Shown here one piece after another: positions 14,701 through 26,780 of a DNA stretch of 39,017 bases (position 1 is the stretch's first letter; each line of letters starts with the position of its first letter). The stretch is from Candidatus Gottesmanbacteria bacterium RBG_16_52_11 (GTDB lineage Bacteria; Patescibacteriota; Microgenomatia; UBA10105; UBA927). The stretch spans positions 1,873 through 40,889 of the forward strand of contig MFJD01000008.1 in assembly GCA_001779095.1 (NCBI GenBank), in the 5' to 3' direction. The notes under the pieces were generated by a model that did no database searches, was not told the DNA's origin, and worked only from the letters and a program-made list of their open reading frames with translations. Made by a program: the position numbers and the translations under genes.

Positions 14701-14709
14701 TGATATAAT
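14701..14709 (+). promoter_or_regulatory. Extended -10 promoter, original tRNA-Lys promoter
   Basis: TGATATAAT gives a TGnTATAAT extended -10 with no clear -35. Transcription would start near 14716, eight bases before the tRNA-Lys-like fragment at 14724. It now reads into a hairpin followed by CTTTT rather than into the intact tRNA. Confidence 0.6.
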
Positions 14710-14723
14710 GAAGTGTCGTTAAA

Positions 14724-14773
14724 GGGCCCATAGCTCAACGGCAGATCCGCCGGCTGGCGGACTTTTAAGCTAT
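14724..14773 (+). repeat. Hairpin-interrupted duplicate of the tRNA-Lys 5' part
   Basis: Bases 14724-14745 are identical to the first 22 bases of the intact tRNA-Lys (15022-15043). Then comes a 16-base perfect hairpin TCCGCC-ggct-GGCGGA (14746-14761) where the tRNA has the eight bases 15044-15051. Then CTTTTAAGCTAT (14762-14773) again matches the tRNA anticodon loop and stem (15052-15063). The tRNA 3' half is missing. The next base completes the ATG of the GIY-YIG gene. Confidence 0.9.
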
Positions 14774-15050
14774 GACGACTTGGGTGTACGTTATAATGGA
14801 TGACACCGATAGAATTTATATTAGTCAAACCAATAATCTTGAAAAGAGATTATTACGGCATAGTGGCTACTTAAGTAGCAAGCAGAGTAGTCATACCAAG
14901 AGACGGAAAGGAAAATGGGCAATTAAATATACTGAAAAGTTCAATAACCGCCCAGACGCAATCAGGCGTGAAAAAGAGTTGAAGTCGTACCGAGGAAGAG
15001 AGTATATTAGGCAAATACTTCGGGCCCATAGCTCAACGGCAGAGCAGTAG
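14772..15050 (+). CDS. Small GIY-YIG nuclease-like protein inserted at tRNA-Lys
   Basis: A 92-aa single GIY-YIG domain protein of the UvrC N-terminal-like superfamily. Motifs are WVYVIMDD (for GIY), RIYISQTNNLEKRL (for YIG and the catalytic Arg) and DAIRREKELKSYRGREY (catalytic Glu). The YIG motif reads YIS, a Gly-to-Ser change that may affect activity. The start codon is built from the end of the tRNA-like duplicate, and the last eight or so residues (AHSSTAEQ) and the stop are encoded by the 5' part of the intact tRNA-Lys. The gene therefore fits exactly between two tRNA-derived sequences, a sign of insertion as a cassette. It is A+T-richer than the genes before it. Whether it cuts tRNA genes or another target is not known. 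Confidence 0.8.
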   Translation: MTTWVYVIMDDTDRIYISQTNNLEKRLLRHSGYLSSKQSSHTKRRKGKWAIKYTEKFNNRPDAIRREKELKSYRGREYIRQILRAHSSTAEQ

Positions 15051-16768
15051 CCTTTTAAGCTATTGGTTGGAGGTTCGAATCCTCCTGGGCTCACTGATAG
15101 TGTTTTTGAAGTGTTGTACTTATCGTTTAGCTCGAAAAGAGGGGCTAAATTGAGTGTTCCATTTTCTAATTCTGTGTAGGTTGGCAGGTCTTCAAAAACT
15201 AGCCCGAACATGGCAGCATTTTGGAAGGGATTAGTGCTTCCGAACAGTAAATCTTTGAGGTGTTCCATGAAGTACTGGGTGTAGTTTATGAGTATCTGAA
15301 TATCAATCTGCTCTTTCTCTTTCTTTTCTCGTACACCCACGAGACTTACCTTCTCATGCTCCAGTTTTTCTATGTCATCCTCAATCAGTTTGATTGTAGT
15401 TGGAAGTGAGAGCATCTTGATTTTATCTTTCAGCTCATGGATTTCATGCTCAATGCTGATAAGTCGTTCGTTGAGTTTGACAGTTACATCTGATACCTGG
15501 TGCTCCCGTTTGTTCCATTCCCCTAGGAATATATCTCTGAATCTTTTTACAAAGCTCTCATCAAAGTCTACATGCTCCATAAACGTCTCTACACGGGTTT
15601 CTAGTGCGTCTACGGGTATTCTGAAGTATTTATGACCACGGCTACAATGGTAAGCAGGGAAGTGTTTACCAGACTTACCCTTTGAAGCGCTGGCAAGTAG
15701 AGGGTTTCTACACGTCGGGCATAAAATATATTGTTTGTACGGGTAGAGTGGATTCTCCTTCTGCTTCCTCAATCTCCAAGGGTCAACCTTGCCTCGATAA
15801 ATCTTCACAGTGTCGCCATCTTCAACAATAGTTATTTTCCCACGATTAGCCCGATTGAACGTGTCTATTGAAACAAGACCAGGAAACTTACATTTTGTTG
15901 GTTCACCATCAAGCCACTTTTCAGTGTTTACACCAGCGTAAATAGAATTCTGAATGTAGCGCTGCATCTGTTTGATGGTAAGTGGTACTCCTCCCATTTT
16001 ATCAATAATTTTTTGCTTATCAGTTTTATCATGGAGCTTTCTCATTCTCGACTTGTAACCAATGGCGTTTACTTGTTCGACAATCTGTAAATCCGTCAAA
16101 GTTCCTTGTTCTCGAAGTTCAAACATCTTGATAAACCACTGAGCTTCTACAGGGTGAGGTGCAAGAATAACTCTCATGCCATGGGTTGTTTCAATCTTTT
16201 CATTCTGATAACCAGGTGGTGCTGGCCTAACACGATAACCCATACGTACATACCTGACTTCCGCACCTATCATCCTTGTAAGAATGTCCCTTACCTCGCT
16301 TTTACCTCTCTCTGCTTCCAACATTTCAGTCACCCAGGTGGGACTATACTCTGACCAGTTATACTTGAGACCAAGATGGTCGAGAGTATTTACTGTTTGC
16401 GTTCCGATTACTCCATACACGTCAATAAATTGAACCCCATACTTAGCAAACTGAGACTTGAGCAATCCATACATCGTAGCTCCGCCTCTCGTGCCCCTGT
16501 CAATGCTTTTTATGAAAGCGTAGCTGATTTTATTGTGGGGATTTTTACAGTGTTCGAGAGCTTTGAGAATAGGTTGTCTATCTAGCTCTCCCGAAGCCGA
16601 CTCAGTGAACTCGAAAAACTTACTAATAGTAATGTTGCGATTGATGGTCAAACCTAATTGTTCTGCCCGCCGGAGTAGTTGCTGTTTCTGGTCTTCGTGG
16701 CTATCACCCATAAGACCTTGCTTGGTAGAAGATACTCGTAAAATACCGATAGCGTATTCTGTTTTCAT
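14891..16768 (-). CDS. Large serine recombinase (integrase), reading through the attachment site
   Basis: A 625-aa frame. The resolvase domain (about 1-160) starts with YAIGILRVSSTKQGL, whose Ser after Arg-Val is the nucleophile, and includes SYAFIKSIDRGTRGG. The Recombinase domain (about 170-300) has GYRVRPAPPGYQNE and LREQGTLTDLQIVEQVN. A zinc ribbon (about 345-385) has CPTC and CSRGH. A coiled coil (about 430-490) follows. About 558 residues belong to the island; after base 15094 the frame runs antisense through tRNA-Lys (SPGGFEPPTNSLKG is the usual product of such reading) and into the GIY-YIG gene. The original C-terminus was thus probably replaced on integration. The start overlaps the preceding gene by four bases. 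Expected role: integration and excision of the island. Confidence 0.9.
   Translation of the reverse strand: MKTEYAIGILRVSSTKQGLMGDSHEDQKQQLLRRAEQLGLTINRNITISKFFEFTESASGELDRQPILKALEHCKNPHNKISYAFIKSIDRGTRGGATMYGLLKSQFAKYGVQFIDVYGVIGTQTVNTLDHLGLKYNWSEYSPTWVTEMLEAERGKSEVRDILTRMIGAEVRYVRMGYRVRPAPPGYQNEKIETTHGMRVILAPHPVEAQWFIKMFELREQGTLTDLQIVEQVNAIGYKSRMRKLHDKTDKQKIIDKMGGVPLTIKQMQRYIQNSIYAGVNTEKWLDGEPTKCKFPGLVSIDTFNRANRGKITIVEDGDTVKIYRGKVDPWRLRKQKENPLYPYKQYILCPTCRNPLLASASKGKSGKHFPAYHCSRGHKYFRIPVDALETRVETFMEHVDFDESFVKRFRDIFLGEWNKREHQVSDVTVKLNERLISIEHEIHELKDKIKMLSLPTTIKLIEDDIEKLEHEKVSLVGVREKKEKEQIDIQILINYTQYFMEHLKDLLFGSTNPFQNAAMFGLVFEDLPTYTELENGTLNLAPLFELNDKYNTSKTLSVSPGGFEPPTNSLKGYCSAVELWARSICLIYSLPRYDFNSFSRLIASGRLLNFSVYLIAHFPFRLLV
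14980..15008 (+). promoter_or_regulatory. Promoter inside the GIY-YIG gene reading into tRNA-Lys
   Basis: TTGAAG (14980-14985) and TATATT (15003-15008) are 17 bases apart, with a predicted start near 15015, seven bases before the mature tRNA 5' end. It lies in the conserved KELKSYRGREY coding stretch and would replace the original promoter cut off by the insertion. Confidence 0.55.
15022..15093 (+). tRNA. tRNA-Lys(UUU)
   Basis: A complete 72-nt cloverleaf: acceptor GGGCCCA/TGGGCTC (15022-15028 with 15086-15092, one G-U pair), D stem GCTC/GAGC, anticodon stem GTAGC/GCTAT with loop CTTTTAA and anticodon TTT (15054-15056), five-base variable loop, T stem GGAGG/CCTCC with loop TTCGAAT, and discriminator A at 15093. 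CCA is not encoded. Its 5' part overlaps the end of the GIY-YIG gene, and its antisense strand is read through by the recombinase frame. It is the probable attachment site of the island. Confidence 0.97.
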
Positions 16769-16968
16769 TTTCTATTTCTATGTTGGTGTTCCATAATAAG
16801 ATTACTAGATTTTACAACAAACTTCAACTGTCCGTTTCGGTAGTCCTCCAGGACTCTATCTATCATCAAGTTAGCCATTATACGCATACGTTCATCCTGG
16901 CTAAGCGTAACCTTGAACTTTGTTTTCTTCTCTACAATCTGGTCAGTGTAAGATTTATTGTTACTCAT
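16765..16968 (-). CDS. Small hypothetical protein of the recombinase operon
   Basis: A 67-aa protein if started at the ATG at 16968, which overlaps the previous gene's stop by a few bases; an upstream in-frame ATG at 16995 would add nine residues. It is charged and mostly helical (VEKKTKFKVTLSQDERMRIMANLMIDRVLEDY) with no membrane segment. The recombinase start overlaps its end by four bases, so the two are probably translationally coupled. I do not recognise the family. A recombination directionality factor or small DNA-binding partner is possible, since such proteins often sit next to serine integrases, but there is no clear helix-turn-helix. Confidence 0.6.
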   Translation of the reverse strand: MSNNKSYTDQIVEKKTKFKVTLSQDERMRIMANLMIDRVLEDYRNGQLKFVVKSSNLIMEHQHRNRK

Positions 16969-17212
16969 AGCGTTTAGTGTTCCATCTGAGACCACGTTTT
17001 TGGATTTCTTGCATGACGCACCCGTTGTAGTAAGCGGCTGGAGATTTTTTCAACTTCCCTCGACGTTCCATATCTAGTGTGTGGGAACTAAGTTCGTAGC
17101 AAGTTTGAGGGCCAAGTAGATAGATAGCCTTACAATGAAAACCTAAGCCATTGAGGTCATTCAATTTTTCAGCAATAATCCTAGCTTCGGCCTCTATACG
17201 TTCGTGATTCAT
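16961..17212 (-). CDS. Small hypothetical protein of mobile-element type
   Basis: An 83-aa soluble protein. The C-terminal part, KKSPAAYYNGCVMQEIQKRG, resembles the ends of replication-initiation or DnaD-like proteins, where a short 'P-A-A-Y-x-x-G' helix occurs. It follows the winged-helix gene with a four-base overlap, so it might be a detached C-terminal module of that protein. The N-terminal half (RIEAEARIIAEKLNDLNG) is helical. Function unknown; assignment to the island operon is firm from the overlaps. Confidence 0.6.
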   Translation of the reverse strand: MNHERIEAEARIIAEKLNDLNGLGFHCKAIYLLGPQTCYELSSHTLDMERRGKLKKSPAAYYNGCVMQEIQKRGLRWNTKRYE

Positions 17213-17772
17213 GTACCTTGCCCTCCCTTCTTTTTTTGGAGGAACGAGTACTTTTCCCGAATCTTGCCTATTGAGTCCGATAGGGGTTTGTTCTTATAAG
17301 AAGGCGATTTTTCTTTGTCTGTCTCAAATCGCGAATATAAATTCTTATCTTTGTTTTCATTATTATTAGTGGTTGTTGGTTGGTTGCTGGTTGGTAATTC
17401 TGATGGTTGTTCGGATGGTTGATTGGCAGCGAGATTCAATCCAAAAATGCCATCCGCCAGATATTCACCAACGGTGTAGCGCTTGGTTGCTCGGATGGTT
17501 CGAATGAGACGGAATCGAACTAACTTCTCATAAGCAGACCTGTATTCACCTTGCGTAAGTCCCAACTCCAGAGATAACTTGATTCTTCCTGTAATAAATT
17601 GACGGGGTAGTAAATGAATGTTTTCACCATTCCAGGCTACATCTCCTTCGACTCTCCTGGCTCTACGGGCAAACTCAGCAAGGAGATGAAATGTTTTAGG
17701 TGATTGCCGAAGCCAATCTGGAATCTCTCGATAGTGGTATATGTAGGTAGATTTACTTGTAGCTGTCTCCAT
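17209..17772 (-). CDS. Winged-helix replication-initiator-like protein
   Basis: A 187-aa protein. Residues about 10-105 look like the N-terminal winged helix of phage replisome organisers and DnaD-like proteins: IPDWLRQSPKTFHLLAEFARRA, LPRQFITGRIKLSLELGLTQ, YRSAYEKLVRFRLIRTIRATKR, ending in YTVGEYLADGIFG. After it comes a disordered linker of Asn, Gln, Pro, Thr and Ser (about 115-145), then a basic tail. By family knowledge such proteins bind an origin and load helicase, which suggests that the island can replicate, or derives from a replicating element. It overlaps the DUF5659-like gene by 20 bases. Confidence 0.65.
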   Translation of the reverse strand: METATSKSTYIYHYREIPDWLRQSPKTFHLLAEFARRARRVEGDVAWNGENIHLLPRQFITGRIKLSLELGLTQGEYRSAYEKLVRFRLIRTIRATKRYTVGEYLADGIFGLNLAANQPSEQPSELPTSNQPTTTNNNENKDKNLYSRFETDKEKSPSYKNKPLSDSIGKIREKYSFLQKKKGGQGT

Positions 17773-18046
17773 ATAAGCCTCCGTTTCGGTATCCGTCTCT
17801 ATTTCTCATCAGCCCCAAAAGCTCCTCCCTTCTGGAGAAAAGCTCTCGTGCCACAGCAGTCCCGCCGTTTACATACTCCTGGACTAACTGCCTGCATTTA
17901 CTGGGGTCTTGAAAAACAAAAGTGAAATGTCGTGGCGTGTCGGGGATAATATCTACAAGGCGGGCTTGATTACAAAGCAGAAAACTACAGACGAGCAAGT
18001 CATCACTTCTATACAACTGATTTTCGGTATCGGTTTGATTTTTCAT
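17753..18046 (-). CDS. DUF5659-like protein
   Basis: A 97-aa protein. The arrangement YRSDDLLVCSFLLCNQARLVDI, then FTFVFQDPSKCRQLVQEYVNGG and a helical tail resembles the DUF5659 family, a small domain found in phages and mobile elements with no settled function. It is the first gene of the five-gene minus-strand operon ending in the recombinase. Its ATG is only about 17 bases after the intrinsic terminator of the upstream candidate RNA, without a Shine-Dalgarno, so its expression may depend on readthrough of that terminator. Confidence 0.6.
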   Translation of the reverse strand: MKNQTDTENQLYRSDDLLVCSFLLCNQARLVDIIPDTPRHFTFVFQDPSKCRQLVQEYVNGGTAVARELFSRREELLGLMRNRDGYRNGGLYGDSYK

Positions 18047-18062
18047 AGTAAGCGTTAGGCCA

Positions 18063-18306
18063 CAAAAAAAGCAGCTCCTTTGAGCTGCTCATCAGTTACA
18101 CTCAAACGGTTGTCCTGATGACACACTCAAAGTGTGCATTTCATCAGGGCTAGGGATTTAGGGTTGTCTCTCGAATTACTCTCCGAGGTTTTGCCTTCCT
18201 ATCCTTTTTCCCTTACGAACCGTTTTGGGCCTAGCTAGCGTCTACTTGAAACTTGAGGTTTCGTTCACCTAGCAATATCCGCTTACTTGGCTATTCAATT
18301 TTCAAT
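18063..18306 (-). ncRNA. Candidate structured RNA of about 240 nt with its own promoter and terminator
   Basis: No convincing coding frame lies here. The minus-strand promoter at 18313-18341 would start transcription near 18306, and the intrinsic terminator at 18064-18089 would end it. Between them the sequence can form a long hairpin (CCTGATGA 18114-18121 with TCATCAGG 18141-18148, continued by CACACT/AGTGTG at 18122-18136) and a long-range helix (AAACGGTT 18104-18111 with AACCGTTT 18218-18225). A GAAAC/GTTTC hairpin lies in the 5' half. Two GCTAGG copies (RNA sense) could compete for one CCTAGC. I do not recognise it as 6S RNA, tmRNA or a known riboswitch. It may be a regulatory RNA of the island or an attenuator leader for the recombinase operon. 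Confidence 0.6.
18064..18089 (-). terminator. Strong intrinsic terminator
   Basis: On the minus strand AGCAGCTC and GAGCTGCT form an 8-bp stem with an AAAG loop, followed by a run of seven T. It lies 17 bases upstream of the DUF5659-like start codon. Confidence 0.85.
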
Positions 18307-18312
18307 AATTTT

Positions 18313-18341
18313 ACTGTAGCAATATATAACTAAAATGTCAA
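18313..18341 (-). promoter_or_regulatory. Consensus -35 promoter for the candidate RNA
   Basis: On the minus strand, a perfect TTGACA (18336-18341) and TACAGT (18313-18318) are separated by 17 bases. It is the best -35 box in the island. Confidence 0.7.
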
Positions 18342-18556
18342 TATAGACCGATATGACGGGATAAACCATGTAATAAATATCAGACTCTGAAGTGCTAGAA
18401 GCAGGAAAAGAAACTAGTGAAAGATTCAAGCATCATCAAGGTATCCCGTACCTTCACTCACTTATAATAAGCCACATAGATTTATATATAAATAATCCAT
18501 ATATGATTTATATAAATATAAACAATATAGAGATACGTCCTACTTTTTCGTCTCCA
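18342..18556. other. Non-coding A+T-rich stretch
   Basis: About 215 bases between the candidate RNA promoter and the end of the XRE gene. Bases 18480-18535 are almost only A and T, with alternating TATATA and ATAAAT runs, which could be an unwinding element or UP-element. A plus-strand frame crosses it (18392-18685) but runs antisense to the XRE gene and looks spurious. No repeats typical of iterons were seen. Confidence 0.4.
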
Positions 18557-18787
18557 TCAGAAGGGCAAGAGCTTGGTCGAAGGTACTCCGAGCGCGGTAG
18601 CAATCTTGAAAATAGTATTGAGTTTTGGATTACGATGACCATTTTCAATTTCGTTTATCGAAGTCAAGTCCATCCCTATATCTAGCGCTAAATCCTCTTG
18701 AGATTTCTTGAGCTTCAATCGTACTGCTCGCACGTTCTCACCAAACGTTCTTCTCACCTCGTTTTCTTTCAATTTACTGCCTGGCAT
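18557..18787 (-). CDS. XRE-family transcriptional regulator
   Basis: A 76-aa protein from the ATG at 18787: FGENVRAVRLKLKKSQEDLALDIGMDLTSINEIENGHRNPKLNTIFKIATALG, read in pieces, is a standard five-helix Cro/C1-type HTH (SQEDLA for helix 2, SINEIENGHRNP for helix 3 and the following turn). The in-frame ATG at 18910 would add about 40 residues with no domain and would cross the operators, so it is rejected. The gene lies back to back with the plus-strand cargo genes and just upstream are palindromic TTATGCCAAA-type sites, so it probably represses the facing promoter and its own. Confidence 0.9.
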   Translation of the reverse strand: MPGSKLKENEVRRTFGENVRAVRLKLKKSQEDLALDIGMDLTSINEIENGHRNPKLNTIFKIATALGVPSTKLLPF

Positions 18788-18788
18788 A

Positions 18789-18840
18789 TTGTCTTTATGC
18801 CAAACTGGAGCTATAATGTCTTTGGCATAAATGCCATATC
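18789..18840 (+). promoter_or_regulatory. Promoter with palindromic operators for the XRE regulator
   Basis: TTGTCT (18789-18794) and TATAAT (18812-18817) are 17 bases apart and read towards the gene at 18888. TTATGCCAAA (18795-18804) and TTTGGCATAA (18821-18830) are perfect 10-bp inverted copies that flank the -10 box. A further overlapping palindrome TGGCATAAATGCCA (18823-18836) gives a third half-site. Binding there would block RNA polymerase. Confidence 0.75.
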
Positions 18841-18887
18841 GAAGCTGAGCGCACACGCAGGCAACTAGTGATAGTTGCTGTTTTTGT

Positions 18888-19409
18888 ATGAAGAAGAAAA
18901 TTGTCATCATTACCGCAATTTTAGTTATGGCGTTACTTGTAGTCGTAGTTAGTCAATCGAAAGAAAAACAGACCACACAGGGCGCTACAGACTGCCAGAA
19001 AGTGGCCATCAATCCACAACCTACCCCTTTTGTGATGAGCGAACCGTTTGACCCGACCAAAGCGCCAGAAGGCAGTGAGTTCTATATGCTCTCCAACCAA
19101 TCGTCTCCCTGGACAAAAGAGTCGTTTGATGTAGACGGGGACGGCGACCCTGAAGACATAATGACTGCAAACCTGGCCATGAATCATACTCCGCACTTAC
19201 TCAAGATTGTAAGAGATAACAAAGTTATCTTTGAAGCTGAAGGTGCGAACATTTATGCAGAAGCTGTAGAAGACGGCGATGGTTTTGTTCTTGGTCTAAC
19301 TACAGACTGGAATACCAATCAAACCAAGCGCACCATGTACGAGTACAAAGATGTCGGTTTTATGCCTACCTGGTATCAAGAAAATTGCAAAACCTATGAC
19401 AATAACTAA
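18888..19409 (+). CDS. Membrane-anchored extracytoplasmic protein, unknown function
   Basis: A 173-aa protein with an N-terminal signal anchor (KKKIVIITAILVMALLVVVVS) and no lipobox Cys, so it is probably tethered or cleaved by signal peptidase I. The external part has a calcium-loop-like stretch FDVDGDGDPEDIM (about 82-94) followed by beta-like segments (HLLKIVRDNKVIFEAEG, GFVLGLTTDW), reminiscent of FG-GAP/VCBS-type repeats, although only one unit is visible. Two Cys residues (36 and 167) could form a disulfide. It is the first gene after the XRE-controlled promoter and overlaps the next gene. Specific function not recognised. Confidence 0.65.
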   Translation: MKKKIVIITAILVMALLVVVVSQSKEKQTTQGATDCQKVAINPQPTPFVMSEPFDPTKAPEGSEFYMLSNQSSPWTKESFDVDGDGDPEDIMTANLAMNHTPHLLKIVRDNKVIFEAEGANIYAEAVEDGDGFVLGLTTDWNTNQTKRTMYEYKDVGFMPTWYQENCKTYDNN

Positions 19410-19617
19410 TCCACTTACAAGTCTTGTTATCTTTACTGTTGCTCTTTTTAGCATTATCCTGGCTTTTGCCATCTGGGGTGCAATGAGCAGTAAGGGCGCA
19501 AGGACTACTCAGTTCAAAGAAAATCTAATAATCGTATTCGGTCTCATCCGTAGTTATTTTGTGTATCTAGTGATAATTGCACTGATAGCTCTGGCATTCC
19601 GCTTTCTAACGAAATAA
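19396..19617 (+). CDS. Small two-helix membrane protein
   Basis: A 73-aa protein from ATG 19396, which overlaps the end of the previous gene by 14 bases. Two transmembrane helices (LTSLVIFTVALFSIILAFAIWG and YFVYLVIIALIALAFRFL) flank a short charged loop (SSKGARTTQFKEN). The upstream in-frame ATG at 19351 lies deep in the previous gene and is less likely. It may be co-translated with the anchored protein before it. Function unknown; holin-like or partner-of-nuclease roles cannot be told apart from sequence. Confidence 0.55.
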   Translation: MTITNPLTSLVIFTVALFSIILAFAIWGAMSSKGARTTQFKENLIIVFGLIRSYFVYLVIIALIALAFRFLTK

Positions 19618-19637
19618 GCCGCTACCAGGCGTATTTC

Positions 19638-19646
19638 TGGTATAAT
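19638..19646 (+). promoter_or_regulatory. Extended -10 promoter for the nuclease gene
   Basis: TGGTATAAT (TG at 19638, TATAAT 19641-19646) lies 22 bases before the ATG at 19668, and a TAGGAT ribosome-binding-like site follows. No strong -35 is seen. Confidence 0.5.
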
Positions 19647-19667
19647 CGGGGCGTTACTTAGGATGAA

Positions 19668-20660
19668 ATGAAACAATTATTTACAGGTAAAAAGAAGCTG
19701 ATAACAATACCTCTTGCCATTCTTTTGGGCTTGGCGTTTCTCCCGTTTGCTATTGCTGTTTTGTTAGTTTGGTTAGTAAATAAAAAAGTAAGTAATAAAA
19801 AGACTCGTTACGCTTCATTCGCCACAATAGGTTTATTTACTTTGTTCTTTGGAAGCGCTTGGGTAGTGGCTATGTCTTCACCGAGCAAGCCTACTCAACA
19901 AAAAGAACAACCCACAGTACAAGTTGACCAAAACGTCTCACAGGCGACAAAACCGATAGAACCTGAAACCTCCCCTACAGTCTTCAAAGCACAAACAGCG
20001 CCGAACAATCCTAACCTGGCACTCGCAAAAGTCGTGGCTGTGATTGACGGAGACACAATAGATGTTGACTTGGGCGAGGGAAATGTAAAACGGGTGCGCT
20101 ACATTGGAGTTGATACTCCCGAGAGTGTTGACCCAAAACAACCGGTGCAGTGTTTCAGTAAGGAAGCGACAGCCAAGAACAAAGAGCTGGTTGAAAATGA
20201 AATTGTAGGGCTTGAGAAAGACGTATCTGAGACAGACCGATACGGTAGACTTCTGAGATACGTTTATATGGGCGATTTATTCATCAATCATGTCCTAGTA
20301 TCTGAGGGTTACGCCAGCGCCATTTCGTATCCTCCCGACGTAAAATACCAAGATAAACTACGAGAGGCAGAACAGCAAGCCAGAACATCTTACAAAGGAC
20401 TCTGGGGTTCGTGCAAAACTGCCACACCTATGCCCACAACTTCCACAAGTACAACAAACAACAATACCTCAACTGGAACTACTACGGGCAGCGGTGCATG
20501 TAAGTATTCATGTACGAGTCCTGATAGGGACTGTTCTGATTTTTCATCTCACGATGAAGCCCAGGCGTTTTTCAACTGCTGCGGATTTACGGCTCAGAAT
20601 GACCCGATGAAACTAGATGCAGTTGGTGTGGGTGATGGAATAGCTTGCGAAAATATCTAA
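19668..20660 (+). CDS. Membrane-tethered staphylococcal-type nuclease with Excalibur domain
   Basis: A 330-aa protein. Two to three N-terminal helices (LITIPLAILLGLAFLPFAIAV, then ASFATIGLFTLFFGSAWVVAM) anchor it; a Gln/Pro/Thr linker follows. The thermonuclease domain spans about 118-248: AVIDGDTIDVDLGEG, RVRYIGVDTPES (catalytic Arg and Glu) and DRYGRLLRYVYMG (second catalytic Arg), so active-site residues look intact. After a Thr/Ser/Asn linker comes a Cys-rich Excalibur-type calcium domain (about 276-330, CSDFSSHDEAQAFFNCCG, ending GVGDGIACE). It should degrade DNA or RNA outside the cytoplasm, for nutrient uptake, competition or DNA processing. It converges with the 1102-aa gene. Confidence 0.9.
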   Translation: MKQLFTGKKKLITIPLAILLGLAFLPFAIAVLLVWLVNKKVSNKKTRYASFATIGLFTLFFGSAWVVAMSSPSKPTQQKEQPTVQVDQNVSQATKPIEPETSPTVFKAQTAPNNPNLALAKVVAVIDGDTIDVDLGEGNVKRVRYIGVDTPESVDPKQPVQCFSKEATAKNKELVENEIVGLEKDVSETDRYGRLLRYVYMGDLFINHVLVSEGYASAISYPPDVKYQDKLREAEQQARTSYKGLWGSCKTATPMPTTSTSTTNNNTSTGTTTGSGACKYSCTSPDRDCSDFSSHDEAQAFFNCCGFTAQNDPMKLDAVGVGDGIACENI

Positions 20661-20687
20661 GGAGCGACTGAATAATTTCTTATTACC

Positions 20688-23600
20688 CTAACCTTCTTCT
20701 TTTACTTCTAGAGCAATACCGGCATTCTCGTCCTTCAGCTCAAACTTCGTACGCTGAAATACTTTGAGGTGCACACGCTTCTGATATTCTCGATATACCC
20801 CCGCTTTGTCCTTTGTCTCTCCAGTTTGTTTATCTTTTAGAATGTCTGGGTTATCCCGTATCATCGTCTCAAACAGTGATTCCGTCATGGGCTCAATCGA
20901 AAACTTGAATTGTCCATCAGTCTTTTTATCCACTCTCAGTTGATGTATCCGTCCAAACTTCCTAATGTCTATCAAGATAACCTTTTCCTCATCTCCTGGC
21001 CCTGGTACTTGAAAAATAGGAACTCTCATAAATAGTCCATAAAATCCATGTAAGTCTGACTTTTCTGGCACTTGCCAACGCTGCGTGAATTTCTTGCTTC
21101 CATGTAGTTTTTCAGTAACCTTCCAACTACTTACCAAAATTGCATCGCAGTGATAGCCCAGAGTGCGTAATACTCTTATTCTCTCCTCAAGCTCCTCCTC
21201 TATATTTACCGAACTAATGTTTTGTTTTTGTTTTGTTTTTTTATAAATTTCATTGAAAAAATGGACATCATCGCTTTGTCCCATGGATGAGCCATAGTGG
21301 TCTCCGAATCCACCATAATCCTTGCTACTGTTGGCGATAAACAATTCCTTTAGTTCAAGCCTATTGTATCCTAAAGTACCGGTTTTTCTCCCTCTCAGTA
21401 CCACGTCGGTCTCATCCAGAAAAGCCTTTTTAGCCTCAAACAGTTTCCTTATGGTTACGTTTTTTGTCCAGGCTTTCATAAATTCTTCACGGAACTTTTC
21501 TATTGCCTCTTCTTCAAGTTCAGCATCTATGACATGCTGCTCTTCCTTTTCCTTTTGCGCCACTACACCTCTCTCGTGAGCTTGTATCAAAACATCACCT
21601 TTCACTAATTCATCGGTAGTTATGATGCCTTCAAACTTCCCTATGTTATCTTTTATTTTCTGTACCATCTTTTGCAGTTTTTCTTTGACGTAATTTAGAC
21701 CGCCTGAACTAAAGTATTCATCATCCTCCGGCGTAGGAAGTGCGACAAGATTCGCGTTGCCCGCAATTCCGATAGCTTTGATTCCAGCAATACAATAGAA
21801 CTCATCTAACCAACTGTCATCAATCCAGTGACCCTCTTCATCATCAAACTGGTCTGAGTCCCACCAGTGCCACCCATAGGTATCACCAAAGCTCCTTTTA
21901 TCAAGATGAAAGTACAACTCATAAATATCTTTGAATGAACCGAGTGCATAGAACTTGGGCAGGTTCTCAATTCCAAACCTCCCCTTTGTGCTCCCCGCAA
22001 GCCTGCGGCGTAATAGCCACGCTCCAAGGCCAAACTTGATGCCTTTCTTATGTTGCGCAATTAGCTTGTTTATTCCAGCTACCCGTTTTGCTATCGAAAG
22101 CTGTACTTCTAGTTGAGCCTTACGGTCATCATCCTTCTCATGCAGTAAATCAAACTCAATCATATCTACATCATGCCTAGTGCTCCTGAAATCACGAGTG
22201 AGATTCTTGAATAACTTCTCGAATCCACTCATAAACTCGTTGAACGCCTTTGTGTCCGAGTAATCAATCGAGCTTTTTATCAGATGTTGTAATACGAGAA
22301 GTATTTCGATTACATATCCAGCGACAAGTTCCTTGTCTTCATCTGATTCCATCAGATGGTTGAACTTTCGACCTAACTCATAGTCGCTGAACTCTTTTAG
22401 ATGTCGCCATACACGGTCAACGATGAGGCTGTCGTTTGTTTTGTAATGCTGTTTGTAAAAAAGATAGGCGTTGTAATATAGATATACCGCCTGTTTGAAT
22501 AACAAGTGGTCCCTATTACTCATCGAAAGCTTCATCATGCGAACAGGGAAATACAATACATCGGTTATCAAGTCTTTGTTTTGACTTTTTATGGCTTCTC
22601 CAATTACCTCCCTTAGGTTACTTTGAATAAGAACCATGGAACGTGTCTCAAGAAACGCTTCTCTTGAAGCTTTGAAGTCAAAACGTGCACCAATTTTCGC
22701 CAAGGAGCTATATATTATTTCTAAAGCGAGATAAAAGTTATCAAGACTCATCGAAAGGTTTGCTTTTACTCCCTTCGTTATAGCCGATACGGCCTGGTCT
22801 CGAATCAAGTCAAAAGTACTGCCCACATCCTCAGTTCTGGCAGATTCGGCCTCTCTCGTTTTGTAGAGTCTACGGATTCCTTTCTCTATGTCCTTGGAGT
22901 AGTCATCTTCGTGGAGCCTTGCCATAACATTGTCATCGGGCACAACCTCGTATCCAACTTGTTTGGTAATGACCAACTTCTGGCCCTTCCCGCTAATTGT
23001 CTTTTTGAGTCGTTTCACTACATTGGGTATTGCACCAATCTTTATATCTGAAACGAACAACTTCCTCTCGGTTGGTAATCTTATGGGGTAAAGCTCGTCT
23101 CTGAAATCTGAACCAAAACCGATATACCCTTCTTTTTCACCTGTATTCATAAGCAGGTTTCCAGCAATTCGGTGAAATATCTCTTCAACAATAGCCTTCT
23201 TGATGATTCCCTCCAGCGCTTTGTTTGTTGCCTGTATTATTTCACTTGGCTCAACAAGTCGGACAAGCCTCATAAGTAAATAAACAGTTGAGAAGATGGT
23301 GATGCAGAATATCCAAAGCGAGAGACCAGCAAGTAACACAGTCCAACTGTTGCCGTCTTTGTCAACAAACGTAGATATTCCTAACGGTATCAGCGCAACA
23401 AGGTTTACCAACAAGATTTCTTTGTACCGAAGTTTTCTAACGACAAACGAAAACGTTTTAGCGGCAATACTTTCTCCGCTGCGTAGAAGTTCAAAGATAA
23501 ATGTGATGCTAATGAAGGTTACTGCCACTACCGCCGCATCAATCTGCCAGAGAGTTTTCAAAAAAGATGAATCGCCGTGTATCTCGATGAAAGTCTTGAG

Positions 23601-23996
23601 ACTCGGAAAACTACCTATTCCTGACCTCCCCCACACAATTATCAGAAGTAGAGCAGACAAAACCCAGAAAATCATCCCTCCAAGGTTCGATGGGTTCAGC
23701 AAGTTAGCGATTCTCAATTCAAGCCGAGGTGCAATTACTGGCGCAAGCGTAAGGTACACTTGTGATGATAGCCACCGCAACTGATTCTTGAAGAAATAAT
23801 TTACACCACTCAACAATAAAATCCCTGCCACTATTATCAATGCAGTCTGAGGTAACACACTCGCGAATGAGAATATGTAAGCAAGAAGCAGTAGAGAAGC
23901 TACTAAGAAAAGACTCAAAACGAGGTAAAATCTATCTCTATGCTTTTCAAGAAACTGTAAAAACCTTGTGTTTGAAAATAAATAATACCAGCCCAT
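20688..23996 (-). CDS. Very large membrane protein of unknown function, 1102 aa
   Basis: I do not recognise this family. The N-terminal 250 residues carry about six transmembrane helices (for example FYLVLSLFLVASLLLLAYIFSF cut after 20, MIFWVLSALLLIIVWG, LLAGLSLWIFCITIFSTVYLL in part). The remaining 850 residues look cytoplasmic, charged and largely helical, with no P-loop, HNH, PD-(D/E)XK or GIY-YIG motif that I can see. Residues about 730-760 are acidic and Trp-rich (YGWHWWDSDQFDDEEGHW). The C-terminal 150 residues contain a compact beta-rich block (HCDAILVSSWKVTEKLHG, EKVILIDIRKFGRIHQLRV). Its size and place among island cargo suggest a sensor or defence protein, which is speculative. It is read from a promoter near 24044. 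Confidence 0.75.
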   Translation of the reverse strand: MGWYYLFSNTRFLQFLEKHRDRFYLVLSLFLVASLLLLAYIFSFASVLPQTALIIVAGILLLSGVNYFFKNQLRWLSSQVYLTLAPVIAPRLELRIANLLNPSNLGGMIFWVLSALLLIIVWGRSGIGSFPSLKTFIEIHGDSSFLKTLWQIDAAVVAVTFISITFIFELLRSGESIAAKTFSFVVRKLRYKEILLVNLVALIPLGISTFVDKDGNSWTVLLAGLSLWIFCITIFSTVYLLMRLVRLVEPSEIIQATNKALEGIIKKAIVEEIFHRIAGNLLMNTGEKEGYIGFGSDFRDELYPIRLPTERKLFVSDIKIGAIPNVVKRLKKTISGKGQKLVITKQVGYEVVPDDNVMARLHEDDYSKDIEKGIRRLYKTREAESARTEDVGSTFDLIRDQAVSAITKGVKANLSMSLDNFYLALEIIYSSLAKIGARFDFKASREAFLETRSMVLIQSNLREVIGEAIKSQNKDLITDVLYFPVRMMKLSMSNRDHLLFKQAVYLYYNAYLFYKQHYKTNDSLIVDRVWRHLKEFSDYELGRKFNHLMESDEDKELVAGYVIEILLVLQHLIKSSIDYSDTKAFNEFMSGFEKLFKNLTRDFRSTRHDVDMIEFDLLHEKDDDRKAQLEVQLSIAKRVAGINKLIAQHKKGIKFGLGAWLLRRRLAGSTKGRFGIENLPKFYALGSFKDIYELYFHLDKRSFGDTYGWHWWDSDQFDDEEGHWIDDSWLDEFYCIAGIKAIGIAGNANLVALPTPEDDEYFSSGGLNYVKEKLQKMVQKIKDNIGKFEGIITTDELVKGDVLIQAHERGVVAQKEKEEQHVIDAELEEEAIEKFREEFMKAWTKNVTIRKLFEAKKAFLDETDVVLRGRKTGTLGYNRLELKELFIANSSKDYGGFGDHYGSSMGQSDDVHFFNEIYKKTKQKQNISSVNIEEELEERIRVLRTLGYHCDAILVSSWKVTEKLHGSKKFTQRWQVPEKSDLHGFYGLFMRVPIFQVPGPGDEEKVILIDIRKFGRIHQLRVDKKTDGQFKFSIEPMTESLFETMIRDNPDILKDKQTGETKDKAGVYREYQKRVHLKVFQRTKFELKDENAGIALEVKEEG

Positions 23997-24022
23997 GTGT
24001 TTCGTTCCGGTTTGTAGCTAAT

Positions 24023-24049
24023 GGGCAGATTCAAGCTGCCCTAATTATA
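24023..24049 (-). promoter_or_regulatory. -10 box and leader hairpin of the 1102-aa gene
   Basis: On the minus strand a perfect TATAAT lies at 24044-24049 without a good -35. Just downstream GGGCAG/CTGCCC (24023-24028 with 24036-24041) forms a hairpin at the very 5' end of the mRNA, about 30 bases before the ATG. It could stabilise or regulate the message. Confidence 0.45.
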
Positions 24050-24121
24050 CGACTTTTGGCTTGATAGTTCTACTTCATCGGGTAGATTTTGTGTTAATTT
24101 TGTAGTTCATTTTTATTTATC

Positions 24122-24127
24122 GTATAA
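24122..24127 (+). promoter_or_regulatory. -10 box before the secreted protein gene
   Basis: TATAAT lies 18 bases upstream of the GTG at 24146, facing away from the 1102-aa gene. No clear -35. Confidence 0.4.
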
Positions 24128-24145
24128 TCCACTTATAAGATAAAA

Positions 24146-24658
24146 GTGAAAAAGCAATTATTTATTTTTCTTTTGGTGGGACTTGTAATCGGCGGTGCAT
24201 CGGTTTATTTCTCCCTTCAATTCAAACCGATGCCCGTAAAAGAAACCGTTTACAACACAGGAATTGATAGAAAAGCCAACATTCAATTCTCTTGTTCACC
24301 ACTAATTGGTACTACACTTTTTCCTGAAACTCGACCAGGAGATGAGCAGTTTGATGTTGAAGCAAGCGCGGTAAGAGATTCTACGTCCATAGCGCTCGAG
24401 GTTGAAGGTGATACTCTGAAGTTTCTCACAAACACATCCGTTGAAACTGGAAGTATGGAGCCTGCTAAGTTCCAGATTATTGAAAACACAGACAAGAGGC
24501 TTACGGCTCTTGGTCTAACCGAGGGAACTACTGACCGAACCATAAACGCCCTGGTTGTTGATAAGAAAACTGGATTAGGTGTATGGTCGAAAACATCAAC
24601 AACGAGTCTCATCCCAGACGTTCCTAACAGCCAAGCGTATTACTACTCCTGCAACTAG
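24146..24658 (+). CDS. Secreted or anchored protein, unknown function
   Basis: A 170-aa protein with an N-terminal hydrophobic signal or anchor (QLFIFLLVGLVIGGASVYFSL) starting at GTG 24146. The external part is Thr/Glu-rich and beta-like (TSIALEVEGDTLKFLTNTSV, TDRTINALVVDKKTGLGVWS). Two Cys residues (about 50 and 169) near each end could form a disulfide; the last two residues are Cys-Asn. It lies back to back with the 1102-aa gene, about 150 bases away, so the two may share regulation. No family recognised. Confidence 0.6.
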   Translation: MKKQLFIFLLVGLVIGGASVYFSLQFKPMPVKETVYNTGIDRKANIQFSCSPLIGTTLFPETRPGDEQFDVEASAVRDSTSIALEVEGDTLKFLTNTSVETGSMEPAKFQIIENTDKRLTALGLTEGTTDRTINALVVDKKTGLGVWSKTSTTSLIPDVPNSQAYYYSCN

Positions 24659-24794
24659 CAGACTCCTAAGTTCGAGTACCTCAACTAGAAGTAATAATTT
24701 TCACTGCGGACTCTTTCGAGGTCTTATACCCTTTGGGATTCTGAAAAACTGGGTGGGTGGGCCCTATTTCTGACGTTCTCGTGCCTCTGGAAGT

Positions 24795-24803
24795 TGATAT
24801 ACT
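24795..24803 (+). promoter_or_regulatory. Extended -10 promoter of the Imm5-like gene
   Basis: TGATATACT (TG 24795-24796, TATACT 24798-24803) lies 22 bases before ATG 24826, followed by an AGGA ribosome-binding-like site at 24809-24812. Confidence 0.5.
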
Positions 24804-24825
24804 AAGATAGGACAAAACACACTAT

Positions 24826-25308
24826 ATGGAAAAACCTAAATTTTCAATTACACACAAAGACGAGGAAATGCTGGAGCTTGTAAAAGATAGTCAACATAAA
24901 ACGTTAGCCATCTGGGCTATTGACTGTGCTGAGAGAGTATTACCATATTTCGAAGAACAATATCCAGAAGACCAACGTCCTCGAAAAGCCATCGAGGCAT
25001 TGCATGAGTGGATAAAATCAGGTATGTTCAGCATGGCTGTTATCCGCAAGGCATCACTTGACTCCCATACTGCTGCTAAGGAAATTGGAAACGATAATCC
25101 AGCTAGTTCCGCTGCCCATGCTGCTGGCCAAACAGTGGCAACTGCACATGTTCCCCGACATGCTTATGGCTCTGCTGTCTATGCCCAACAGGCTATCTTT
25201 AGGGCCACTGACTTGTCCAAAGCCAATTCTGCCGTCACTAAGGAACGAGACTGGCAATACCAACACCTGCTTGAGCTAGGTAGGAATGCTCTAAAACCAA
25301 AACAGTAA
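24826..25308 (+). CDS. Imm5-like putative immunity protein
   Basis: A 160-aa soluble helical protein. The pattern WAIDCAERVLPYFEEQYPED, RPRKAIEALHEWIKSG, VIRKASLDSHTAAKE and AHAAGQTVATAHVPRHAYGS matches the Imm-5-like 'putative immunity protein' family. By family annotation these neutralise toxins of polymorphic toxin systems, although many members sit alone in genomes and direct evidence is thin. No toxin with a recognisable delivery domain is next to it; the only nuclease nearby is the tethered staphylococcal-type one about 4 kb away. It has its own promoter. It may act as an orphan immunity gene carried by the island. Confidence 0.75.
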   Translation: MEKPKFSITHKDEEMLELVKDSQHKTLAIWAIDCAERVLPYFEEQYPEDQRPRKAIEALHEWIKSGMFSMAVIRKASLDSHTAAKEIGNDNPASSAAHAAGQTVATAHVPRHAYGSAVYAQQAIFRATDLSKANSAVTKERDWQYQHLLELGRNALKPKQ

Positions 25309-25339
25309 GCATTTACACGGTAGCATAGGTGTATTGTGG

Positions 25340-25368
25340 TTGTAGGTCAAACCGCTTGAGGGTATAAT
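25340..25368 (+). promoter_or_regulatory. Promoter for a candidate small RNA
   Basis: TTGTAG (25340-25345) and a perfect TATAAT (25363-25368) are 17 bases apart. Transcription would start near 25375. No gene follows within 290 bases. Confidence 0.6.
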
Positions 25369-25374
25369 AGACAC

Positions 25375-25478
25375 GTTCGAAGTAAGCCAGTAATGAGTTC
25401 CAGTTCTGACTCAACTGGCTCACAAGTAAGTACTTCAGACCGGGTACAACGGCAGATCCGGCGCAGCCGGAATTTTTT
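25375..25478 (+). ncRNA. Candidate small structured RNA ending at the tRNA-like hairpin
   Basis: About 104 nt between the promoter at 25340-25368 and a terminator-type hairpin at 25457-25478. Within it GAAGTA (25379-25384) can pair with TACTTC (25431-25436), enclosing a hairpin with CCAGTT (25400-25405) and AACTGG (25413-25418), loop CTGACTC, extended by GAG/CTC. The hairpin resembles a tRNA anticodon arm (five to six pairs, seven-base loop), but no D or T arm is found around it. No open frame of useful length is present. Function unknown. Confidence 0.5.
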
Positions 25479-25485
25479 AAGCTAC
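25441..25485 (+). repeat. Second hairpin-interrupted tRNA-Lys-like fragment and terminator
   Basis: AACGGCAGA (25448-25456), a hairpin TCCGGC-gca-GCCGGA (25457-25471), then TTTTAAGCTA (25475-25484). This is the same layout as 14737-14772, with identical flanks and a different hairpin. The ATTTTTT after the stem makes it a good intrinsic terminator. It lies about 10.7 kb from the first copy and may mark the right side of the island. Confidence 0.7.
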
Positions 25486-25666
25486 TTTTAAGTAAACGCA
25501 AGAACATCGTCCTCCTCAATTAATTACGAAGCTTATTCTCCTGTGTTAAATACACGAATAGAGATAAAAATTCAAAGTTAATGAATTTACTATCAATTCA
25601 TAAAATCTTCAAAAGGAATAACTAATAAATACTGCTCTAATCAAACGATTAAGATATAATAATATT
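25485..25666. other. Non-coding A+T-rich stretch before the HAD gene
   Basis: Low-complexity A/T sequence with no frame or repeat of note. It ends with TATAAT at 25655-25660, six bases before the ATG at 25667, which is read as a promoter giving a leaderless mRNA. Confidence 0.5.
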
Positions 25667-26305
25667 ATGACAAAACCAAGGAATAAGATTAAATTCATCT
25701 ATCTTGACGTAGGTGGTGTCTCAATATTGGATTTTTCCGGCACTGATCGCTGGGTACGAATGTTAGAGTCTATGGGCGTGACAAGTGATATTTATCCAGA
25801 ATTTATGAATATCTGGAATAGCCATCATAGTGAGATCAATACCATATATGACGTTGAGCTTATGATTAATGAATTTCGTGAAATCGGATTAAATTTACCC
25901 GACGATTACTGCTTTAATGACGAATTTGTTAAGCGCTTTACACCAAATGAAAGTATTACAAAACCAATAAATAAAGCTATAGAATATGGCATAAGTGTTG
26001 GACTACTTACGAATATGTATCAGAGAATGTTCAAAAAAATATCTGATGCAAATTTATTACCCCGAATAAACTTTTATCCAATTATTGATTCAAGCTTACT
26101 TGGTGTAGCAAAACCTGATATAAAAATATATGAAATTGCATTGAAGGAAATAAGTTATAAACCTCAAAATGTATTATTTGTAGATAATTCCATACCCAAT
26201 ATAAAAACTGCACAACTACTGGGATGGCAAACTTACCTTTATAATCCCAGAAATCCGATTAAATCATCAAATGAATTATTAGATATTATAAATATATCAA
26301 GATAA
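25667..26305 (+). CDS. HAD-superfamily hydrolase
   Basis: A 212-aa haloacid-dehalogenase-type protein of the IA subfamily. Motif I is IYLDVGGVSI: the nucleophilic Asp is present but the second Asp of DxDxT/V is Gly, as in some IA members written DxGGV. Motif II is VGLLTNMYQ (T for the usual S/T), motif III lies around GVAKPDIKIYEIAL (Lys), and motif IV is VLFVDNSIPNIKTAQLLGW (Asp with downstream Asn). The cap is helical (about 15-90). Substrate unknown; sugar phosphates and nucleotides are common. It is very A+T-rich compared with its neighbours, so it was probably acquired separately. It is likely leaderless. Confidence 0.85.
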   Translation: MTKPRNKIKFIYLDVGGVSILDFSGTDRWVRMLESMGVTSDIYPEFMNIWNSHHSEINTIYDVELMINEFREIGLNLPDDYCFNDEFVKRFTPNESITKPINKAIEYGISVGLLTNMYQRMFKKISDANLLPRINFYPIIDSSLLGVAKPDIKIYEIALKEISYKPQNVLFVDNSIPNIKTAQLLGWQTYLYNPRNPIKSSNELLDIINISR

Positions 26306-26729
26306 TAAATCATACCGTCTAGTACATCAGAATCTATTCTTCACGAAACAGTATATCCACAAAAATAAACCAAATCTAAATCTTCATTAGATGTTGGAAT
26401 CGGATTTGGCAAACGTGCTTTTTAAATACTTGAATTTTTTTAATGGTTCGCTCACTGATTCCGTTATTTTATCAACTGACCGCTTTGCTATTTTTGTTAA
26501 ATATGTTGACGCATACTATTTTGAGTATATTCAGCATTTCTGTTTAGCATACCGTAATTAATAGTCCCGTAAAACGCAAAATATTCACTTAGATTTCGCA
26601 AATAACTGTAGAAATTACGTACATTTAGGAAAATTGAAGACAGTAATACCTGATTCCGGAGAATGATAGGTATTCTTATACCTTGTCAACGGGAGTCAAG
26701 TATATTATTTTATACTTGGAGCGTAATTT
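26306..26729. other. Intergenic region with palindromes before the beta-propeller gene
   Basis: About 420 bases without a gene. A+T-rich and featureless up to 26640. Then come AATACCT/AGGTATT (26645-26651 with 26668-26674), the overlapping palindrome AGGTAT-tctt-ATACCT (26668-26683), and the promoter region. The AGGTAT/ATACCT words are the same as those in the atpD-atpC repeat. Confidence 0.5.
26683..26718 (+). promoter_or_regulatory. Promoter with a palindromic operator
   Basis: TTGTCA (26683-26688) and TATTTT (26706-26711) are 17 bases apart. A perfect inverted repeat CAAGTATA (26697-26704)/TATACTTG (26711-26718) surrounds the -10 box and probable start point, a good place for a repressor. 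Confidence 0.5.
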
Positions 26730-26780
26730 ATTTCCGATATTTATTTAGTTTATTCTAAAATCACTGCTGCAATTATTTTA

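Follow-up and report, generated by a model that had tools for sequence, protein, structure and literature searches.

How can a mobile gene occupy a tRNA gene of which the host has a single copy? The window analysed here, a 39,017-nucleotide stretch of contig 8 of the 1.47-Mb genome of Candidatus Gottesmanbacteria bacterium RBG_16_52_11, raises this question. Downstream of pyrG, rplS and yraN (as read; yraN = UPF0102) and of a native -10 box lie, in 5' to 3' order, a 5' fragment of tRNA-Lys (hereafter the stump, 14724–14773), an open reading frame (ORF) for a small GIY-YIG nuclease (14772–15050) and a complete tRNA-Lys(UUU) gene (15022–15094). The features of the locus, and what identifies each, are as follows.

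14704–14709, plus strand: TATAAT, the native -10 box of tRNA-Lys, which the insertion has left 5' of the stump (sequence; promoter enrichment upstream of stumps over 67 cassettes)
14724–14745, plus strand: stump segment A, tRNA-Lys positions 1–22 (exact duplicate of 15022–15043)
14746–14761, plus strand: perfect hairpin TCCGCC-GGCT-GGCGGA replacing positions 23–30 (sequence; likewise placed in Lys cassettes from other bacteria of the Candidate Phyla Radiation, CPR)
14762–14773, plus strand: stump segment B, tRNA-Lys positions 31–42, CTTTTAAGCTAT (repeat comparison)
14772–15050, plus strand: small GIY-YIG nuclease ORF, 92 amino acids (PF01541, 41.9 bits; Tyr, Tyr, Arg and Glu conserved)
14979–15008, plus strand: candidate new promoter TTGAAG-18-TATATT proposed by an earlier, sequence-only reading (chance-level match; not a conserved feature)
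15022–15094, plus strand: complete tRNA-Lys(UUU), single genome copy, the rescue copy (Rfam; genome tRNA search)
25447–25485, plus strand: second, decayed hairpin-tagged tRNA-Lys fragment CAACGGCAGA-TCCGGCGCAGCCGGA-ATTTTTTAAGCTA (sequence; lies 10.4 kb further on, close to where a low-GC island ends)

The stump is an altered copy of the start of the tRNA. Its first 22 nucleotides recur exactly 298 bp downstream and a second common block recurs at 15052–15063, while the eight bases between them have been swapped for a 16-nt hairpin (TCCGCCGGCTGGCGGA), a motif expected 0.01 times in the window by chance. The duplicate's final two bases form part of the ATG of the nuclease ORF, whose TAG stop coincides with tRNA positions 27–29. 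These coordinates agree with the sequence-only reading that the gene is framed on both sides by tRNA-derived DNA, with its start in the duplicate and its stop in the tRNA. That reading had also identified the 22-base duplication, which is indeed exact, but the duplicate extends further, to positions 31–42. The complete tRNA scores 72.9 bits against Rfam and is the sole Lys(UUU) gene among 45 tRNA genes that our search detected in the genome. Its destruction by an insertion would therefore be expected to kill the cell. The earlier proposal that the insertion keeps an essential tRNA functional is supported.

We consider it likely that the locus belongs to a widespread group of small, mobile, homing-type GIY-YIG cassettes, each of which disrupts a tRNA gene and carries in a rescue tRNA; the cleavage and homing steps are those we infer.

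The same arrangement recurs within the genome and far beyond it. In this genome the single tRNA-Asn gene is associated in the same way with a second GIY-YIG gene (L003), a pseudogene interrupted by one TGA. Across the family (24 genomes, 100 distinct small GIY-YIG genes), we scored same-strand tRNAs starting no more than 300 bp downstream. Such a tRNA lies just 3' of 47 of the 100 genes, against a chance level of about 0.7%, and none lies there on the opposite strand. Sixteen tRNA isotypes are struck. A cognate stump upstream of the gene, defined as at least 10 matches to the first 12 tRNA bases, was present in 24 of 48 cases, versus 1.6% with mismatched isotypes. This cognate-isotype test took the place of a general flanking-repeat scan, which was uninformative because common palindromes and conserved tRNA motifs inflate its null. 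Among 55 genes sampled from across the phylum, 13 are followed by a same-strand tRNA and none by an opposite-strand one; seven have a cognate stump.

Relatives of the window nuclease show the pattern too. Scanning 85,000 prokaryote genomes with its Lys/Asn clade yielded 384 loci; we retained 80, and a locus on a viral contig (L236) brought the set to 81. The 80 come mostly from CPR bacteria (Doudna-, Magasanik-, Curtiss-, Moran- and Shapirobacteria, among others), and a few are labelled Bacteroidota, Ignavibacteria or other phyla. A same-strand tRNA follows the gene in 59 of the 81 (33 Asn, 21 Lys, 3 Met, 1 His, 1 Pro), none lies on the opposite strand, and 53 of the 59 also have a cognate stump. 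The search of CPR genomes for GIY-YIG genes with tRNA halves that the sequence-only reading had suggested thus finds a recurrent arrangement, spread over 16 isotypes in the family and over many CPR genomes. Isotype also tracks clades of the nuclease: the number of isotype changes on the nuclease tree is 28, versus 35.8 in shuffled data (minimum 31 of 2000 shuffles). In the Lys/Asn clade, isotype changes 5 times (22.4 when shuffled) and hairpin position 6 times (19.4 when shuffled).

The cassettes sit inside tRNA genes, and they do so in three anatomies. The displaced native part of the tRNA, which may be a 5' stump, a 3' remnant or both, stays beside the nuclease gene in hairpin-altered form, and a complete tRNA lies on the gene's other side. 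The window locus belongs to the first type, in which stump, GIY-YIG gene and tRNA follow one another. The second is its mirror image, a tRNA followed by the GIY-YIG gene and a hairpin-tagged 3' half, and occurs at Lys (L157, L172), Asn (L178, L184, L226) and Ile (L225) tRNAs. Among 36 genes with an upstream tRNA, the last 14 tRNA bases are found again downstream in nine, whereas the null is 0.9%. In the third, nested type, a stump is followed usually by a GIY-YIG gene, then by a complete tRNA and then by the native 3' half; five nested loci (L208, L175, L168, L116, L144) have a hairpin-bearing, 31–47-bp piece of the native tRNA on both sides.

The complete tRNA is foreign to the split tRNA in several loci. 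At L116, L159, L252, L253, L161, L152 and L180, the outer acceptor strands pair with each other at 7 of 7 positions but with the complete tRNA at only 3–6 of 7, from which it follows that a native tRNA has been split around a different, complete one. We count at least seven such loci, six of them independent, as L252 and L253 are the same locus in two congeners. L116 and L144 come from different genera and are alike in nuclease and complete tRNA-Val, whereas the acceptor ends of their outer stumps and their flanks differ.

These anatomies bear on a simpler origin. tRNA genes are recombination hot spots, and ordinary tandem duplication or recombination at such sites, tolerated by a GIY-YIG gene that is only a passenger there, might leave partial copies behind. 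Stump arrays at L156 and L173 fit such an origin, as do duplications that extend past the promoter in L175, L191 and L212. It would not, on the other hand, lead one to expect the strict orientation with one small nuclease family, the cognate stumps or the hairpin tag, nor the mirror and nested forms, the isotype-tracking clades and the foreign rescue tRNAs. We regard it as quite improbable.

Comparison with uninterrupted relatives, another suggestion of the sequence-only reading, yielded a clean empty site. In a His-Arg-Lys tRNA cluster, one genome (G007) has a 307-bp cassette at tRNA-His, whereas in three congeners (G017, G019, G023) the same kind of promoter, near-identical in G017, is joined directly to an uninterrupted tRNA-His. 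Occupied and empty alleles of one site, a pattern expected of free-standing homing endonuclease elements, therefore exist at tRNA-His. The yraN/tRNA-Lys site of the window shows turnover: order-level relatives L046 and L062 carry two unrelated GIY-YIG lineages and hairpins there, and at L040 all that is left beside a stump is the final ~45 bp of a GIY-YIG gene, which makes it look like a deletion remnant. At L252 and L253, the nuclease gene has been lost or was never present; these could be remnants or non-autonomous copies. The sequence-only reading had held that a duplicate lacking any GIY-YIG gene would speak against insertion. Such duplicates do occur (L040, L252, L253), and they qualify the insertion reading without overturning it.

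Presence and absence among congeners also weighs on the idea that stump and hairpin form a conserved RNA leader, vertically kept and immobile, with a regulatory effect on either the nuclease gene or the tRNA. The hairpin does lie just 5' of the start codon, and homing endonucleases of phage T4 are hairpin-regulated (PMC2988022). An immobile leader is nevertheless hard to reconcile with the many isotype switches, with mirror types whose hairpin lies 3' of the gene, and with decayed stumps, and we hold it to be highly improbable.

The hairpin is a consistent mark of the displaced copy. A 6-bp GC-rich inverted repeat occurs within 75 nt in 62 of 67 distinct stumps. Under the same test it occurs in 9 of the complete tRNAs, in no coding stretch and in 4 far-upstream stretches, and shuffling gives an expectation of 7.2. 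In 62 of 67 stumps, tRNA sequence picks up again past the hairpin, which places it inside the duplicated tRNA, not at a junction with the nuclease gene. In Lys and Asn relatives, the stump is usually interrupted by TCCGCC-AGCT-GGCGGA, which follows position 13 in Asn and position 22–24 in Lys. Both isotypes have been struck by more than one nuclease lineage, with differing hairpin positions. Hairpin position thus appears to go with nuclease lineage, on trees many of whose forks such short proteins leave unresolved. L182 and L199, which are Lys loci with the D-loop hairpin position, fall outside the Asn clade, so hairpin position is not fully separable from isotype.

Might the hairpins themselves be the mobile unit? 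They could be REP- or MITE-like elements mobilised by the GIY-YIG protein, as REPs are by RAYT, with tRNA insertion one outcome among others, seen only where a tRNA copy survives. Nearly all genes in the Lys/Asn clade come with a TCCGCC-NNNN-GGCGGA hairpin. The window's genome (G000) holds eleven copies of TCCGCCNNNNGGCGGA (L237–L247), against 0 for a reversed-pattern control; most lie away from tRNAs, and the one in the window is alone in visibly belonging to a tRNA fragment. Moreover, about half of the family's small GIY-YIG genes have no detectable adjoining tRNA, and several such genes are located within inverted repeats or dispersed palindromes. This last observation also implies that tRNA genes are one target class among several. 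Set against a mobile palindrome are three points. Hairpin sequences are wholly unlike between lineages while the tagging of the displaced copy stays constant, nested loci require a foreign complete tRNA to have arrived with the gene, for which palindrome transposition alone is insufficient, and no insertion-target consensus emerged for the stand-alone palindromes. We judge this alternative unlikely.

The nuclease itself is minimal. The window ORF matches PF01541 with 41.9 bits (E 1.3e-10), above the curated cut-off of 22.6, and the active-site residues Y2, Y12, R22 and E63 are invariant throughout group A1, the window protein included. Nuclease genes are under purifying selection, with a median dN/dS of 0.16. 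The window protein departs from the intact motif in having YIS for YIG, where relatives mostly have YIG or YTG, and this particular nuclease may be losing activity. Cassette proteins comprise little more than a catalytic domain, which counts against the homing reading as regards target recognition. The GIY-YIG ORF is the only gene in the cassette, which contains neither a recombinase, as an integrase-plus-att element would, nor a Y1 (tyrosine) transposase, as a REP/RAYT system would. Group I or II introns and other RNA elements were likewise rejected as candidates, since only the tRNA exceeds its Rfam gathering score between 14400 and 15400.

Phages are not the main carriers. A tblastn search of 50,697 phage records returned no match to the window protein, and IMG/VR gave a single relative (L236); a phage origin was set aside on these grounds.

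How is the restored tRNA transcribed? The sequence-only reading proposed that the insertion carries a new promoter, placed in a conserved coding stretch, that drives it. TTGAAG (14979–14984) and TATATT (15003–15008) do end 13 bp 5' of the tRNA, although their spacer counts 18 bases and not the 17 first given. We scored 60-bp windows in 67 cassettes for at least 9 of 12 promoter positions. Promoter-like matches occur in 42% of windows 5' of the stump but in 9% of those 5' of the complete tRNA, compared with 17% of shuffled sequences and 13% of coding background. The window's internal match and its native promoter both score 9/12, a score that is common by chance here. The internal promoter is thus at chance level, and we give the proposal hardly any credence. 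Nor does the hairpin serve as a general terminator for the old promoter that was said to read into it: a T run follows it in Lys cassettes only, where it is the tRNA's own anticodon loop. The further suggestion that the trick works wherever such a gene lands stands as far as generality across isotypes goes, and falls with the promoter as its means. On the simplest reading, the complete tRNA-Lys is probably kept transcribed by read-through from the native promoter, coupled with tRNA 5'-end processing.

In the homing-type reading that we favour, the nuclease would cut an uninvaded tRNA gene near the hairpin position. The break would be repaired from the invaded allele, copying in nuclease gene and rescue tRNA, and the rescue tRNA would allow the cell to survive and the element to spread. 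The hairpin would tag the displaced copy as non-functional and, probably, as immune to cleavage. The part displaced in the window is the 5' half. Counting against this scheme, it offers no account of how the complete tRNA escapes the cut.

Our case for homing draws on three known systems. In fungal mitochondrial mORFs, an essential gene is invaded by an endonuclease gene, which supplies it with a new, often foreign end and displaces the native one (PMC3630166). These elements, known from atp6, atp9, cox2 and nad3 in Allomyces macrogynus and Glomus, encode LAGLIDADG enzymes, or a GIY-YIG enzyme in atp9 (PMC3630166). The cassettes similarly carry a replacement part of the host gene and displace the native part, and the replacement is foreign at the seven loci with unmatched acceptor strands (PMC3630166 for the mORF pattern). 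Unlike mORFs, which affect the C-terminus of mitochondrial protein genes, they lie in bacterial tRNA genes of nearly every isotype and replace either tRNA half or the whole tRNA, leaving a hairpin-tagged displaced copy. The second system is SegB of phage T4, a GIY-YIG homing endonuclease with a site between tRNA genes. As described in the available part of PMC2988022, free-standing GIY-YIG genes of T4, SegB above all, resemble the cassettes in being small, beside tRNAs and equipped with RNA hairpins near the gene start, and they are preferentially inherited in mixed infections. SegB differs in leaving tRNA genes whole; a stump, a hairpin-tagged copy and a rescue tRNA are not among the features that this part of the source describes. 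Third, some insertion sequences in CPR rRNA genes carry GIY-YIG genes and are not introns (PMC11270868). They share CPR hosts and the GIY-YIG domain with the cassettes but target rRNA and bring no replacement gene copy, and the text of that paper mentions neither tRNA, nor duplication, nor palindromes.

Two further systems offer partial parallels. REP/RAYT elements, in the available excerpt of PMC2817692, likewise tie short palindromes to a small DNA-acting gene, but RAYT is a tyrosine transposase, whereas the cassettes have a GIY-YIG protein, tRNA targets and a rescue tRNA. Engineered home-and-rescue drives, as far as the accessible portion of PMC7968924 describes them, follow the same logic of disrupting an essential gene and supplying a working replacement in one element; the cassettes differ in being natural, bacterial and known here from sequence alone.

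We put forward more tentatively, at somewhat under even probability, that the cassettes form an undescribed CPR-wide break-and-rescue class. A minimal nuclease would destroy a tRNA gene, a lineage-specific hairpin would immunise the displaced copy and a complete replacement would be supplied, making a natural home-and-rescue drive that swaps tRNAs horizontally. The open-access literature gave no earlier description of GIY-YIG genes with tRNAs in CPR, of GIY-YIG genes with palindromes, or of the palindrome string, which is weak evidence. If the proposal is correct, it helps to account for the abundance of small GIY-YIG genes in CPR, many of which end in tRNA sequence, and it provides a natural selfish element that breaks an essential gene while supplying a replacement. 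It would also open a route for the exchange of whole tRNA genes between lineages, with a bearing on tRNA phylogenies and annotation. The 5', 3' and nested anatomies, together with lineage-specific hairpin positions, give cleavage-site predictions that are directly testable in vitro.

Several other arrangements were noted among these genomes. Stump-like 5' copies with hairpins lie upstream of tRNA-Thr(UGU) (L019) and tRNA-Pro(CGG) (L022) in the window's genome, with no GIY-YIG gene. Tandem or repeated hairpin-tagged tRNA fragments with no nuclease gene between them occur at L156 (84-bp period), L173, L190, L206 and L224, and may be non-autonomous derivatives or the result of repeated invasion. 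In three genomes (L002, L155, L121), a GIY-YIG gene accompanied by palindromes lies directly upstream of an apparent comF, which may mark a target site at a protein gene. A 19-bp inverted repeat, CCGGGTAGTGAAACTTCAG ... CTGAAGTTTCACTACCCGG, flanks GIY-YIG genes at L074, L107, L109, L106 and L103 in the manner of a minimal transposon. At L137, L131, L104, L127, L138 and L136, GIY-YIG genes lie within dispersed palindromes, GTCATTGCGAGG...GCAATCTC and GTCATTCCGGGCTTGACCCGGAATCC, of which they may represent the autonomous form.

Immediately 3' of tRNA-Lys in the window is a low-GC island (15095–26800). A large serine recombinase (Pfam Resolvase) is encoded on the minus strand by an ORF at 14891–16768, which crosses the tRNA in antisense orientation. 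In an order-level relative (L046/L181), the equivalent position is occupied by a 54%-identical recombinase that adjoins the relative's own GIY-YIG cassette. The recombinase appears to belong to a separate island and not to the cassette. At the island's far end, 26445–26460 is a possible remnant of a tRNA 3' end (GGTTCG..CTCACTGAT). Together with the decayed fragment at 25447–25485, it may mark attR, or a nested split-tRNA cassette that the island interrupted. The island also encodes an Imm5-like immunity-type protein (24826–25308; PF21805, 140 bits).
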